Source: Bacteroides luhongzhouii
Lineage (GTDB): Bacteria; Bacteroidota; Bacteroidia; Bacteroidales; Bacteroidaceae
DNA length: 64,000 nt
Reading direction: 5' to 3'
NCBI RefSeq assembly: GCF_009193295.2
Contig: NZ_CP059973.1
Location: forward strand, 1,612,001-1,676,000
The notes under the pieces are model-generated. The model ran no database searches. It saw nothing but the letters and a program-made list of their open reading frames with translations, and was not told where the DNA came from. A program made the translations under genes and the position numbers. Each line of letters begins with the position of its first letter. Position 1 is the stretch's first letter. Of the stretch, positions 15,734-20,752 are shown piece by piece.

Positions 15734-17287
15734 ATGAGTGGCAAGATTTACCCTATCGGTATACAGAACTTTGAAAAAATTCGTAAAGGTGGCTATTTTT
15801 ATATTGATAAAACAGCATTGATTTATCAATTGGTGAAAACCGGAAGTTACTATTTTCTGAGTCGTCCGCGCCGTTTTGGCAAAAGTCTGCTCATTTCTAC
15901 GCTTGAAGCCTACTTTCAAGGAAAGCGGGAGCTCTTTGAAGGGTTGGCTATGGAGAAGCTGGAAAAAGATTGGATAACGTATCCTGTATTACATCTTGAT
16001 CTTAATACGGAAAAATATGATACTCCGGAAAGTTTGGAGAACAAACTCAACGGGGCATTGGTGGAATGGGAGAAGATGTATGGCGCAGAGCCCTCGGAGA
16101 GATCCTTAGCGATGCGTTTTGAGGGGATTATTAAACGTGCCTGTCGACAGGAAGGACAGCGTGTGGCTATTCTTGTGGATGAGTATGATAAGCCGATGTT
16201 GCAGGCCATTGGTAATGATGCCTTGCAAAAGAGTTTTCGCAATACATTGAAAGCTTTCTATGGCGCATTGAAAAGTCAGGATGGCTGTATTAAGTTTGCT
16301 ATGTTGACGGGAGTTACCAAGTTCGGTAAAATTAGTGTGTTCAGTGACCTGAATAATCTGGATGACATTTCAATGTGGAATAAGTATGTAGATATTTGTG
16401 GCGTCAGTGAACAGGAACTATACGATAATCTGGATGTTGAGCTTCATGAGTTTGCCAACATACAAGGGGTGACGTATGAGGAGATATGTGCCCGGTTGAA
16501 AGAGATGTATGATGGTTATCATTTTACGCATAATTCTAAGGGAATGTACAATCCTTTCAGTCTGCTTCATGCTTTTAATCGGAATGAGTTTGGGAGTTAT
16601 TGGTTTGAAACGGGTACTCCTACTTATTTGGTGGAGTTGCTGAAGAAATACCATTACGACCTTCATCGGATGGCTCATGAAGAAACCGATACCCAAGTGC
16701 TGAACAGCATTGACTCTGAATCTACCAATCCTATTCCGGTAATCTATCAGAGCGGGTACCTTACCATTAAAGGGTATGATGAAGAATTTGGAATTTACCG
16801 TTTAGGTTTTCCTAATCGTGAAGTGGAGGAAGGATTTATCCGTTTTCTGCTTCCTTATTATGCGAACGTGGATAAAGTGGAATCTCCCTTTGAAATTCAG
16901 AAATTCGTTCGTGAGGTACGTGCCGGTGATTACGAATCTTTTTTCCGTCGCCTGCAAAGTTTCTTTTCCGATATTCCATACGAGCTTGCTCGCGAATTGG
17001 AGTTACATTATCAGAATGTACTTTATATTGTATGTAAACTGGTAGGTTTTTATGTAAAAGCGGAATATCATACGAGTGAAGGCCGTGTGGATATGGTATT
17101 GCAGACTGACAAGTTCATTTACATTATGGAATTTAAACTGAATGGTACAGCGGAAGAAGCTCTGCAACAGATAAATGACAAACACTATGCCCGACCATTT
17201 GAAACGGATTCACGAAAACTTTTTAAGATTGGTGTGAATTTCAGTGCTCAAACAAGAAATATAGAGAAGTGGTTGGTCGAAAATTGA
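15734..17287 (+). CDS. AAA-ATPase-like protein with PD-(D/E)XK nuclease domain
   Basis: A 517-residue protein of a family abundant in Bacteroides (Pfam AAA-ATPase_like plus PDDEXK_9/DUF1703). The N terminus has PIGIQNFEKIRKGGYFYIDK, a degenerate P-loop RPRRFGKS at residues 44-51, and a Walker-B-like ILVDEYDKP near residue 147. The C terminus carries the nuclease-like D-x(n)-E-x-K element (EGRVDMVLQTD, then YIMEFKLNG) around residues 450-470. Function is unknown; defence or mobile-element roles have been suggested for the family. It stands alone, with a weak -7 box at 15699 and an AT-rich 12-bp hairpin (17371-17407) after its stop. Confidence 0.88.
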   Translation: MSGKIYPIGIQNFEKIRKGGYFYIDKTALIYQLVKTGSYYFLSRPRRFGKSLLISTLEAYFQGKRELFEGLAMEKLEKDWITYPVLHLDLNTEKYDTPESLENKLNGALVEWEKMYGAEPSERSLAMRFEGIIKRACRQEGQRVAILVDEYDKPMLQAIGNDALQKSFRNTLKAFYGALKSQDGCIKFAMLTGVTKFGKISVFSDLNNLDDISMWNKYVDICGVSEQELYDNLDVELHEFANIQGVTYEEICARLKEMYDGYHFTHNSKGMYNPFSLLHAFNRNEFGSYWFETGTPTYLVELLKKYHYDLHRMAHEETDTQVLNSIDSESTNPIPVIYQSGYLTIKGYDEEFGIYRLGFPNREVEEGFIRFLLPYYANVDKVESPFEIQKFVREVRAGDYESFFRRLQSFFSDIPYELARELELHYQNVLYIVCKLVGFYVKAEYHTSEGRVDMVLQTDKFIYIMEFKLNGTAEEALQQINDKHYARPFETDSRKLFKIGVNFSAQTRNIEKWLVEN

Positions 17288-17316
17288 ACTGCCCCTGCGC
17301 CGGAAATGAAATATTC

Positions 17317-17470
17317 ATTTCTCATATTCTCATAGATTTGATTTAAATAGCAGATAATTAATAAAGTAAGCTATGAGAAATACTTTTAGAATTGGTATTT
17401 CTCATAGTTTTATTCGCAAATAGACCTTGATTTGGCTTATTTCTCATACCTGTTGAACTCATTTCTCATA
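17317..17470 (+). repeat. Left array of TATGAGAAATA motifs
   Basis: Five sites: a double site at 17317-17335, then 17371-17382 (opposite orientation), 17396-17407, 17438-17448 and 17460-17470. Measured from the outer edge the sites start at offsets 0, 54, 79, 121 and 143. The right array (18539 back to 18386) has the same sites in mirror order, with identical offsets. The outer 23 bp (17317-17339) are a perfect inverted copy of 18517-18539, and the outer 90 bp match at about 72 positions without gaps. The sites at 17371 and 17396 also form a perfect 12-bp hairpin. The innermost site encodes the last codons of the HU-HIG gene. Confidence 0.85.
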
Positions 17471-18070
17471 ATGTCCCGGTGTTGGTATATAAATAGGCTG
17501 TGTGGGCTTACCTATATTCTGTAAGTAGCCTTGTGCTTTAAGGCGACGGATTTGCCTACTGGCCATACTTTGAGTGAAACAGCAGAGCGACTGCATATTG
17601 GAACGGGTCAATACGGGGTGAGTTGCAAAATATCCAGTGAGTTTCTTGTCGATCTCTTCTTCAGAAAGAGAAGCGGAATGTGGCTTGTATTTTGAACGTC
17701 GTAGATGAGTGCTCATGCACAAACCTTTTAAATCTCTATCAGCTTGGAAGTTAATGGACTTAAGTTTTACTTTGTCTGCACGGGTGGTAAGTGAGTGCAC
17801 GGGTTCGGTGGCCTGTAGTGTAACCTGAAAATAACCGATTCCGTCCAGGTGTACTCGTTCTCCCTCGCACAGATGGTTGCCCATGCATCTGCTCAATTCC
17901 ATTAACATGGCTTCTACTTCTGCTTTCCCGAAAGTGGTTGCCATGTGGATTTCTCTTGCCAGCTTTTGAGTGGTCACATGTTGAAAATTAACCACCCGTG
18001 GGTGGTAACTAGGTTCTTCCCCTTCTTTTTCCGGTTGGGGATTCTTATAAAACTCGAACTGTATTGCCAT
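17459..18070 (-). CDS. HU-HIG family DNA-binding protein
   Basis: A 203-residue protein. The first 125 residues form an HU-like domain of the Bacteroidetes HU-HIG type (TTQKLAREIHMATTFGKAEVEAML, then GERVHLDGIGYFQVTL). The C-terminal 70 residues look like a winged helix (VLTRSNMQSLCCFTQSMASRQIRRLKAQGYL). HU-HIG proteins are presumed nucleoid or site-specific DNA binders and often lie beside a VirE-like gene, as here. The gene has a full promoter at 18266-18296 and a leader of about 190 nt containing four regularly spaced repeats. It is enclosed by two mirror-image motif arrays. Its target sequence is unknown; the flanking repeats are obvious candidates. Confidence 0.85.
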   Translation of the reverse strand: MAIQFEFYKNPQPEKEGEEPSYHPRVVNFQHVTTQKLAREIHMATTFGKAEVEAMLMELSRCMGNHLCEGERVHLDGIGYFQVTLQATEPVHSLTTRADKVKLKSINFQADRDLKGLCMSTHLRRSKYKPHSASLSEEEIDKKLTGYFATHPVLTRSNMQSLCCFTQSMASRQIRRLKAQGYLQNIGKPTQPIYIPTPGHYEK

Positions 18071-18165
18071 CTTTGTTTTAATTTAATGGTTGTTTATATG
18101 TTATGTACTGATGCTCTTAGTGTATCTCGCTTTTATTCTTTTATTATTCAACCGCCATCCTGATT

Positions 18166-18249
18166 GTTCCACTAGAGTGAACGGCTCTTTTCACTCTAGT
18201 AGACAGAACTTTTTACTGTAGTGAACAGGCCTGTGCACTCTAGTGGAAC
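18166..18249. repeat. Four iteron-like repeats at exact 22-bp spacing
   Basis: Ten-base dyads of the form CACTnnAGTG occur at 18170-18179 (CACTAGAGTG), 18192-18201 (CACTCTAGTA), 18214-18223 (TACTGTAGTG) and 18236-18245 (CACTCTAGTG). Starts are 22 bp apart with unrelated 12-nt spacers, so all four lie on about the same face of the helix. The outermost units extend to a perfect 14-bp inverted repeat (GTTCCACTAGAGTG at 18166-18179 and its complement at 18236-18249). The block lies just downstream of the predicted start of HU-HIG transcription, so it could act as an operator or as an RNA structure. Confidence 0.9.
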
Positions 18250-18265
18250 GATTGGGATGCTCTTT

Positions 18266-18296
18266 CAAAGATACGACATTATTAGGTGAAAAACAA
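18266..18296 (-). promoter_or_regulatory. Promoter of the HU-HIG gene
   Basis: On the minus strand TTG (18296-18294) and TATCTTTG (18273-18266) are separated by 20 nt, a full Bacteroides promoter. Predicted start is near 18259, giving a leader of about 190 nt that contains the four 22-bp-spaced repeats. Confidence 0.7.
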
Positions 18297-18385
18297 GTAA
18301 TTAACTAGTTGTTTGCATGAAAGAAATAGCTAGATGTTTGGTAAGATAAGCTTGGCGGATAAACAGGAGAACAGTTGTGTCTGAC

Positions 18386-18539
18386 TATGAGAAATACCCT
18401 GAAAGAGTATGAGAAATAGCGGTTTTTTGAAGAAAATCGATGAGGATTGTATGAGAAATACCTATTTTAAAAACGTTTCTCATAATGTACTTCTTTGATT
18501 ATATGTGCTTTATCTGAAATCTATGAGAATATGAGAAAT
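18386..18539 (-). repeat. Right array of TATGAGAAATA motifs
   Basis: Five sites: 18386-18396, 18408-18418, 18450-18460, 18476-18484 (opposite orientation) and a double site ending at 18539 (CTATGAGAATATGAGAAAT from 18521). Each maps exactly onto a site of the left array under the relation left = 17317 + (18539 - right). The array lies upstream of the HU-HIG promoter and about 60 bp before the VirE-gene promoter. Confidence 0.85.
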
Positions 18540-18592
18540 AGAATTGAAAAATCTTTTCTAGTAGAAAGATGAAATAAGTATTCTCTGAAAAG

Positions 18593-18673: not shown

Positions 18674-20752
18674 ATGAGAATAACACTGGTAAGAGACGAT
18701 GGCAAGGTGAACACTATGCGTACGTTAAGAATCGAACAGCTCGTAGAGCAAATGAAAGTGGAAACCAAAATGCAGCCCGTCTCAAAAATGAGAGAAGTCC
18801 TGCCTTTTATGCTTCCGGGTGATAAAAATGATTATGTACAGAAAGTACCGAAGTTAATACCCGCCGCAGCCTTTTTTCGCAAAGGCGGCATAACGGCGAT
18901 GAGTGAATATAACGGAATTGTGATGATTCAGGTCAACAACTTGTCCGGACACATGGAGGCGGATGAAGTGAAAGAGCGGGTAAAGGAGCTTCCGCAGACT
19001 TACTTAGCTTTCACCGGATCTTCCGGAAAGTCTGTGAAAGTATGGGTACGTTTTACTTATCCCAATGATCTTCTGCCGACAACTAGTGAGGAAGCGGAGC
19101 TTTTTCATGCGCATGCCTATCGGTTGGCAGTGAAGTTTTATCAGCCACAACTTCCTTATGATATTGAACTGAAAGTACCTTCATTGGAGCAATATTGTCG
19201 TTTAACTTTTGACCCGGACCTGTATTTTAATCCCGAAGCAATGCCTATTTATATGAAGCAGCCTGCGGCTATGCCGGGTGAGGTGACTTATCGCGAACGG
19301 GTACAAACGGAAACGTCACCATTGCAACGGCTTGCGCCGGGATATGAAAAATGCAATGCGCTTTCTGTCCTTTTCGAAGCTGCTTTTGCACGTGCGCTGG
19401 ATGAAGAGGCTGATTATCATCCGGAAGGAGACAAACAATCGCTGTTGATTAATCTTGCTGGACATTGTTTTCGTGCCGGTATTCCTGAGGAAGATACAGT
19501 ACGGTGGTCTCGTGCCCATTATCGCTTGCCGAAGGATGATACATTGGTTCGGGAGACTGTGCGGAATGTATACCGGTCTTCAGAGGGATTTGCGAGTAAG
19601 AGCAGTCTGTTGCCGGAACAATTATTTGTCATGCAGATGGATGAGTTTATGAAACGACGTTATGATTTCCGTTTCAACCAACTGACATCACAAGTGGAAT
19701 GTCGTGAACGAAATAGCTTTAATTTTTATTTTCGTCCGGTGGATAAGCGGTTGATGGCAAGTATTGCAATGAATGCACATTATGAAGGGCTTAAACTTTG
19801 GGATAAAGATGTGGTACGTTATCTGAATTCGGATCATGTGCCGGTTTATCAGCCTATTGAGGACTTTCTTTATGACCTTCCCCATTGGGATGGTAAAGAT
19901 CACATCGGCGATCTTGCCAAGCGAGTTCCTTGTGATCATCCTCATTGGGGGCAATTGTTTCGGCGCTGGTTTCTCAGTATGATAGCACATTGGCGTGGAA
20001 TGGGAAAGAATCATGCAAACAGTACTTCTCCTATATTAATCGGTCCACAGGCTTATCGTAAGTCTACATTTTGCCGGTTAATTTTGCCTCCATGCTTGCA
20101 GGCTTATTATACGGATAGTATTGATTTTAGCAGGAAGCGGGATGCCGAGCTATATTTGAATCGTTTTTTACTGATTAATATGGATGAGTTCGATCAGATT
20201 GGCATTAATCAGCAGTCTTTCCTCAAGCATATTCTACAGAAGCCTGTTGTCAACACACGGCGACCGAATGCTTCGGCAGTGGAGGAACTCCGTCGGTATG
20301 CTTCTTTTATAGGAACGAGTAATCATAAAGATTTGCTGACGGATACTTCCGGCAGTCGTCGTTTTATCGGTGTGGAGGTGACTGGAGTGATTGACGTGGT
20401 CCGTCCTATTGACTATGAGCAATTGTATGCGCAGGCAATGGCACTGCTGCGCAGTAATGAGCGCTACTGGTTTGATGAGAAAGAAGAGGCTATAATGACG
20501 GAAGCTAACCGGGAATTTGAACAGTCGCCAGTAATTGAACAATTGTTTCAGGTGTATTATCGGGCGGCAGAGGAGGAAGAAGAAGGAGAATGGCTGCTTG
20601 CTGCGGATATATTGCAGCGGATACAAAAGGCAAGTAAAATGAAGTTTTCTTCCGGACAAGTTAATTATTTCGGGCGTATCTTGCAGAGATTGGGTGTAAA
20701 GTCGTTCAGGAAAACACGCGGGGTTTATTATCATGTGGTGCCTGTTGGGTAA
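18674..20752 (+). CDS. VirE-family primase-helicase-like protein (BT4734 type)
   Basis: A 692-residue protein with a BT4734-like N-terminal domain (roughly residues 40-170, containing FFRKGGITAMSEYNGIVMIQ, as in primase-related folds), a linker, a VirE-type P-loop NTPase (Walker A GPQAYRKST at 457-465, Walker B LLINMDEFD at 499-507) and a C-terminal DUF3874-like segment. The VirE NTPase belongs to a group that includes phage and satellite replicative primase-helicases. In Bacteroides such genes lie near surface-glycan loci with an HU-HIG gene, and their role is unknown. A hairpin terminator follows at 20768. A replication or mobilisation function is inference. Confidence 0.85.
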   Translation: MRITLVRDDGKVNTMRTLRIEQLVEQMKVETKMQPVSKMREVLPFMLPGDKNDYVQKVPKLIPAAAFFRKGGITAMSEYNGIVMIQVNNLSGHMEADEVKERVKELPQTYLAFTGSSGKSVKVWVRFTYPNDLLPTTSEEAELFHAHAYRLAVKFYQPQLPYDIELKVPSLEQYCRLTFDPDLYFNPEAMPIYMKQPAAMPGEVTYRERVQTETSPLQRLAPGYEKCNALSVLFEAAFARALDEEADYHPEGDKQSLLINLAGHCFRAGIPEEDTVRWSRAHYRLPKDDTLVRETVRNVYRSSEGFASKSSLLPEQLFVMQMDEFMKRRYDFRFNQLTSQVECRERNSFNFYFRPVDKRLMASIAMNAHYEGLKLWDKDVVRYLNSDHVPVYQPIEDFLYDLPHWDGKDHIGDLAKRVPCDHPHWGQLFRRWFLSMIAHWRGMGKNHANSTSPILIGPQAYRKSTFCRLILPPCLQAYYTDSIDFSRKRDAELYLNRFLLINMDEFDQIGINQQSFLKHILQKPVVNTRRPNASAVEELRRYASFIGTSNHKDLLTDTSGSRRFIGVEVTGVIDVVRPIDYEQLYAQAMALLRSNERYWFDEKEEAIMTEANREFEQSPVIEQLFQVYYRAAEEEEEGEWLLAADILQRIQKASKMKFSSGQVNYFGRILQRLGVKSFRKTRGVYYHVVPVG

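Follow-up and report, generated by a model that had tools for sequence, protein, structure and literature searches.

Two mirror-image arrays of a short DNA motif enclose an HU-HIG gene at positions 17317–18539 of the window, the whole 64-kb stretch of DNA analysed here. This arrangement raises the question as to which protein reads the arrays and why their geometry is maintained. The reading that best fits our observations is that the arrays spread in a MITE-like manner long ago and today are retained where they stand, in an architectural or regulatory role. Judging from sequence comparisons, the HU-HIG protein encoded between the arrays, or a close orthologue, has a somewhat better than even chance of being the protein that binds them.

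Results

The initial annotation had described the two mirrored arrays with five sites on each side of the gene, and this description is confirmed. The window contains ten TATGAGAAATA-type sites, split over a left array (17317–17470) and a right array (18386–18540). The left array consists of sites at 17316–17326 (minus strand, double with 17327–17333), 17372–17382 (plus), 17396–17406 (minus), 17438–17448 (minus) and 17460–17470 (minus). The sites of the right array are located at 18386–18396 (plus), 18408–18418 (plus), 18450–18460 (plus), 18474–18484 (minus) and 18530–18540 (plus, double). Measured from the outer edges, the annotated offsets of 0 (the double site), 79, 121 and 143 hold on both sides; the remaining offset is 55 instead of 54. 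The outer 23 bp indeed form a perfect inverted repeat, and complementarity over the outer 90 bp is 80% (about 72/90), as claimed. Inverted similarity extends a further ~22–26 bp outside 17317 and 18539. Comparison across element ends defines the corresponding outer tips, a degenerate continuation of the inverted repeat at 17291–17316 on the left, with a family consensus by eye of approximately CTRSAAAMGATTTTTCATTTTC, and its counterpart at 18540–18565 on the right.

All seven exact copies of TATGAGAAATA in the window fall inside the two arrays. When up to two mismatches are allowed, there are 55 matches in the window against 38 expected, a number reached by one of 100 shuffles. The complete genome (G000, one 5.76-Mb contig) contains 53 exact copies compared to 16 of the reversed control word. 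Because of this excess, and because the spacing recurs at unrelated loci, the TATGAGAAATA arrays are not a product of chance.

The gene between the arrays (17459–18070, minus strand) codes for a protein of 203 residues with an HU domain and a C-terminal winged helix (PF18291, 1.6e-35; PF00216, 5.4e-6). Members of the HU-HIG family (Pfam PF18291) combine HU with a wHTH, an Ig or a glycine-rich motif. The protein matches the family profile over 125/125 positions with 122.3 bits against a curated cut-off of 26.2. In a structure model with a mean pLDDT of 84.9, fold comparison assigns residues 31–121 to the HU fold, which is also recognized by sequence, and residues 134–198 to a winged-helix fold. 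The third helix of this winged helix (167–179), the predicted recognition helix, is followed by the wing and includes residue 171. At the DNA level, the innermost left site (17459–17470) overlaps the end of the gene and its stop codon, so that TATGAGAAATGA at this position encodes Tyr-Glu-Lys-stop. Two neighbouring genes lie outside the module: an AAA-ATPase/PDDEXK gene at 15734–17287 (plus strand; PF09820, PF08011) and a VirE/VapE-like gene with a BT4734-like N domain and DUF3874 at 18674–20752 (plus strand; PF08800, PF05272, PF12990).

Between the gene and the right array, ~98–177 bp upstream of the start codon, we found four phased palindromes of TTCACTCTAGTGAA type with 22-bp spacing (18168–18247). 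The genome encodes 29 matches to PF18291; of these, all but the four weakest were surveyed. Mirror arrays occur at only one of these 25 HU-HIG genes, that of the window, and phased palindromes of differing sequence precede five of them, the window's gene included. Palindromes of ACTATAGT type also form intergenic islands near 1966506, 2324295 and 2902109 (L133, L131 and L132) with no adjoining HU-HIG match; similar palindromes precede the HU-HIG genes at 792529, 1545057 and 4967451. Given the five palindrome-bearing genes and these HU-free islands, the central palindrome row looks like an HU-HIG operator. This raises the question whether the entire arrangement could consist of ordinary autoregulatory operators with a small regulon, and with neither looping nor pairing. 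The five upstream palindrome rows do suggest operators, two related paralogues carry repeated words just downstream, and half-modules (3/11 in G000, see below) demonstrate that a single arm can be maintained. On the other hand, the mirror symmetry of two ~155-bp arms with fixed spacing around 0.5–1.2 kb exceeds the requirements of an operator, and we consider this explanation very improbable.

The two related paralogues, L116 (241762) and L120 (1753288), have the same winged-helix type, and clusters of their own words (GGTGAGGGTA-like and GGTGAAAGCG-like) follow immediately after their stop codons. In these clusters an 8-mer occurs four times in 250 bp, a density that 6/4000 random windows reach.

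Modules elsewhere in the genome

Exact-word mapping located eight two-arm modules and three right-half modules, 11 in total, in G000. The 1223-bp module of the window (17317–18539) is the only two-arm module with an HU gene inside. An association of the arrays with the HU-HIG gene in itself is not supported, since no other module found in G000 has an HU gene inside. Ten further copies, whole or half, are distributed over the chromosome: 764-bp modules at 421843, 628174 and 4798333, a fourth of this type at 5429275 (to 5431853) that is interrupted by a DDE transposase gene (PF13751), modules of 550, 612 and 593 bp at 2555318, 2867488 and 2989795, respectively, and right halves ending at 1164094, 1236441 and 2783231. 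The array spacing recurs within a few bases across these modules. Since modules at different loci are up to 91–92% alike over 390–490 bp, they must be copies of one another. The palindrome row at 22-bp spacing between the arms is of TTCACTCTAGTGAA type in the window and in the rRNA-upstream modules, and of TTCCC...GGGAA type in the others. An origin-like structure, one of three options that the initial annotation had offered, is not supported, as 11 modules or half-modules reside on a single chromosome, compared to one or few origins per replicon.

All four 764-bp-type modules, the interrupted one included, lie upstream of 16S genes, in one case (L001) at a distance of 0.86 kb. The near-identity of these four modules reflects that of the entire 7-kb region. 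Arrays upstream of 16S genes were also detected in G021 (3 loci), G086 (5/7 fetched loci), G091 (1/3) and G012 (2/2, at contig ends). The fetched array pieces of G053, G001 and G107 (8 pieces), and those of G009, G044 and G059, contained no 16S gene. Two rRNA-upstream modules, G000 5429275–5431853 and G021 2959865–2962472, are interrupted by two different DDE transposase genes. These insertions are of two kinds by Pfam and sit inside or next to the central palindromes. The orthologous modules L049 and L008 differ by one 22-bp unit in their central palindromes, and thus the row may grow or shrink by whole units.

Spread and conservation in place

Presence of the modules varies between genomes. 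At the L008 locus, G000 and G021 carry the module, G044 and G009 have a shortened version of it, and G001 and G030 have none; one B. acidifaciens module is missing from G044, where the flanks are 99% similar. The modules have therefore spread at some time in the past. At the place of the L008 module, G012 contains a different stretch with palindromes of TTGTCTA...TAGACAA type (L083/L103), which suggests that such intergenic places are hot spots for palindrome-bearing sequence.

A transposable family of MITE type with multi-site ends, mobilized by a transposase encoded elsewhere, would explain this distribution; the HU-HIG protein would then be a passenger or an accessory bender, comparable to HU or IHF for Mu. 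The modules do resemble MITEs in that the 550–764-bp copies are short, non-coding elements with terminal inverted repeats at several loci. The similarity between loci, the presence of modules in some genomes and their absence at the same place in others, and the inverted tips all fit this explanation, and the combination of ends with an internal operator-like array recalls Mu. Spaced, oriented sites at the ends are also a trait of Mu- and Tn7-like elements, yet no transposase cargo was found among the modules read; the DDE genes in the two longer copies are foreign insertions. Neither did inspection by eye reveal a target duplication in 15 paired elements, although the insertions are old and such duplications may have decayed.

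The pattern of variation between orthologues also speaks against this explanation. In ten orthologous arm sets, 10/280 columns are variable at the motif sites outside the core pair, compared to 171/1037 in the spacers (Fisher p = 6e-10). The core-pair sites have 8/200 variable columns, a count that is biased because the core pair served to find the loci. The outer tips vary at 55/260 columns, or at 35/234 when a mis-shifted set is left out; the latter value does not differ from the spacers (p = 0.62) but does differ from the motif sites (p = 6e-6). Since the tips vary like spacers while the motif sites vary little, these alignments indicate that constraint is acting in place on the inner sites and not on the outer tips. 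Gene conversion between copies would have levelled the spacers as well, and MITE copies that were dead would have lost their sites once the species had separated. We regard a transposable family of this type as unlikely. Transposon ends, the second option of the initial annotation, account for the dispersal of the modules but not for the lack of transposase, target duplication and tip conservation among those read, and the third option, a DNA-bending complex formed by an HU-like protein, fits best. That the geometry is functional, as the annotation had concluded from the retained spacing, gains support from the recurrence of this spacing at other loci and from the conservation of sites relative to spacers in orthologues.

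Motif type and HU-HIG type

Full-length orthologues of the HU-HIG protein (68–100% identity) are encoded by 14/119 genomes of the genus. The core-pair pattern, in either of the two words described below, was found in 17/119 genomes, namely in all 14 orthologue carriers and in 3/105 others (G043, G074 and G116, one match each). G043 contains a full array and no close HU orthologue, in an assembly that is 72% complete. At the 14 orthologous HU loci, arrays flank the gene on both sides in 13 (partial in G082 and G093) and on one side in G107. No locus lacks the arrays or carries them at random spacing. In 12/14 the spacing is that of the window (in G082 as far as it can be read). In G093 and G107 the inner sites are positioned 22 and 44 (not 42 and 64) bp beyond the core, and the outer double site at 47 and 56. 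The HU loci of these two genomes share this spacing with the four dispersed G-type arrays looked at (L196, L209, L202 and L207; mirrored, within a few bases); this alternative spacing is regular and common to HU and dispersed loci, and hence not random.

Arrays built from the ATGAGAAAT word are referred to as A-type and those built from ATGAGAGAT as G-type. Four of the 14 carriers use ATGAGAGAT instead of ATGAGAAAT, and do so outside the HU locus as well as within it. In a hand count of exact sites at array positions only, 90/90 sites at the HU loci of ten genomes read ATGAGAAA, and 30/30 in the other four read ATGAGAGA. The G-type arrays of G001 and G053 have the same spacing as A-type arrays. 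Exact G-type core pairs, HU locus included, number 36 in G053, 9 in G001, 8 in G107 and 6 in G093; among the A-type genomes they number 0 in G000, G009, G044, G091 and G111, 1 each in G021, G059, G082 and G086, and 3 in G012. The 91 distinct arms in the fetched loci comprise 71 pure A-type, 18 pure G-type and 2 mixed arms, both of the latter from G012. Named genomes with an A-type core pair are B. acidifaciens, B. xylanisolvens XB1A, B. congonensis and Bacteroides sp. GM023, which together with uncultured Bacteroides account for 19/26 stretches; the remaining 7/26 are all non-Bacteroides with lone pairs. The genome of the window groups with these Bacteroides.

Across genomes, the motif type mostly follows the type of the HU orthologue. 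Over all 203 residues, position 171 is the only one that is fixed and different between the two groups, with Ser in A-type and Ala in G-type proteins. At six more positions, 164 among them, the two groups share no residue. As the HU tree leaves it undecided whether the A-type proteins form a single clade, the match between residue and word may reflect just one or two evolutionary events, and the Ser171/Ala difference could be a hitch-hiker. The C-terminus of the HU-HIG orthologues reads Glu-Lys in 10/10 A-type and Glu-Arg in 3/4 G-type proteins (G093, G107 and G053). A paralogue at 1026020 (52% identical) has Ala at the same place of the helix, and an inverted ATGAGAGA pair is located downstream of its gene.

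Linkage provides another candidate reader. The VirE-like gene adjoins the HU gene in most carriers, with 80–92% identity in six A-type genomes (G009, G012, G021, G044, G086 and G091) and three G-type genomes (G001, G053 and G093), and the HU-HIG protein is thus not the sole linked candidate. If the VirE-like protein or an unlinked regulator read the arrays, the HU-HIG gene would merely travel along. The small number of motif and HU types, which are phylogenetically confounded, is compatible with this possibility, as is G012, which breaks the match between word and reader: its HU gene and locus are A-type, yet two rRNA-upstream modules are mostly G-type (9/10 and 8/10 exact sites). Also speaking against the HU-HIG protein as the reader are one A-type array in the G-type genome G107, the single G-type core pairs of G021, G059, G082 and G086, and the three genomes with a core-pair match but no close HU orthologue. 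Against a different reader stands the location of the diagnostic HU residue in the predicted DNA-reading helix. Moreover, no VirE match was found within 1.5 kb on each side of the HU genes of G111 and G082, or in the 13-kb piece around that of G107, although all three have arrays; the gene may be elsewhere in these genomes. Taken together, we consider it rather improbable that another protein reads the arrays.

Discussion

If the HU-HIG protein is the reader, the HU body would bend the DNA and the C-terminal winged helix would recognize ATGAGAAAT. The tightest unit of the array, two inverted sites 24–25 bp apart, could serve as the site for one dimer, and further dimers on the 22/42-bp raster of the remaining sites could wrap each arm. 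The two arms might then pair to close a loop around the central palindromes. Binding to the arrays at 17317–18539 would, in addition, place the HU gene under the control of its own product. Copies elsewhere, those upstream of rRNA operons among them, would act as architectural or regulatory stations. In this reading, copies would have spread MITE-like in the past, and one of the dispersed stations would carry the gene of its own reader.

We can only tentatively extend this proposal to the genus, and the generalization may well fail: each Bacteroides HU-winged-helix protein might read its own word of ~10 bp, mark its own gene, and use mirror arrays of fixed geometry as stations throughout the genome, including at rRNA operons. 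Word, spacing and reader would then co-evolve genome-wide, and the reading code could be derived from sequence alone.

Several known systems share parts of this design. MITEs, such as the Correia elements with their internal IHF site, are also short, non-coding and dispersed between genes, with inverted ends and sites for a DNA-bending protein inside. In contrast to these elements, the modules have no visible target duplication, their sites are conserved where they stand even as the tips diverge, and one copy encodes the probable reader. REP/BIME sequences are short palindromic repeats with a RAYT/TnpA-REP partner. They too are dispersed intergenic repeats that bind architectural proteins, as is predicted here, but they consist of a short palindrome instead of mirrored pairs of five-site arrays. 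The ends of Mu and Tn7, which function with HU or IHF, also have several spaced and oriented sites per end and an internal operator-like array; unlike these, the module ends are nearly symmetric, the tips are not conserved, and the modules read contain no transposase of their own. MatP–matS and similar systems resemble our proposal in that one protein, here the putative reader, serves many dispersed sites. The difference is that each station is a structured array and that the word differs in concert between relatives. In the literature we searched, mostly outside subscription papers, we found neither a DNA word or site network for the HU-HIG family nor an account of dispersed stations read by an HU-winged-helix protein.

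If our proposal is correct, Bacteroides would possess architectural proteins that are sequence-specific even though the HU fold on which they are built normally is not; their dispersed stations would have a conserved geometry and a DNA word that is able to switch genome-wide. The HU-HIG family, with its 29 members by Pfam match in this genome, would gain a testable function, and the co-evolution of reader and word would become measurable in natural isolates. At the rRNA operons of some gut commensals, the stations would add a layer of control or insulation.

Repeated sequence next to related genes was also noted in other places. Imperfect repeats are visible by eye downstream of L112, L113 and L117. 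In G053, a G-type array (L205/L236) is located directly 3' of a gene whose product has, by eye, an HU-HIG-winged-helix-like C-terminus, and ahead of a sigma-factor-like gene.
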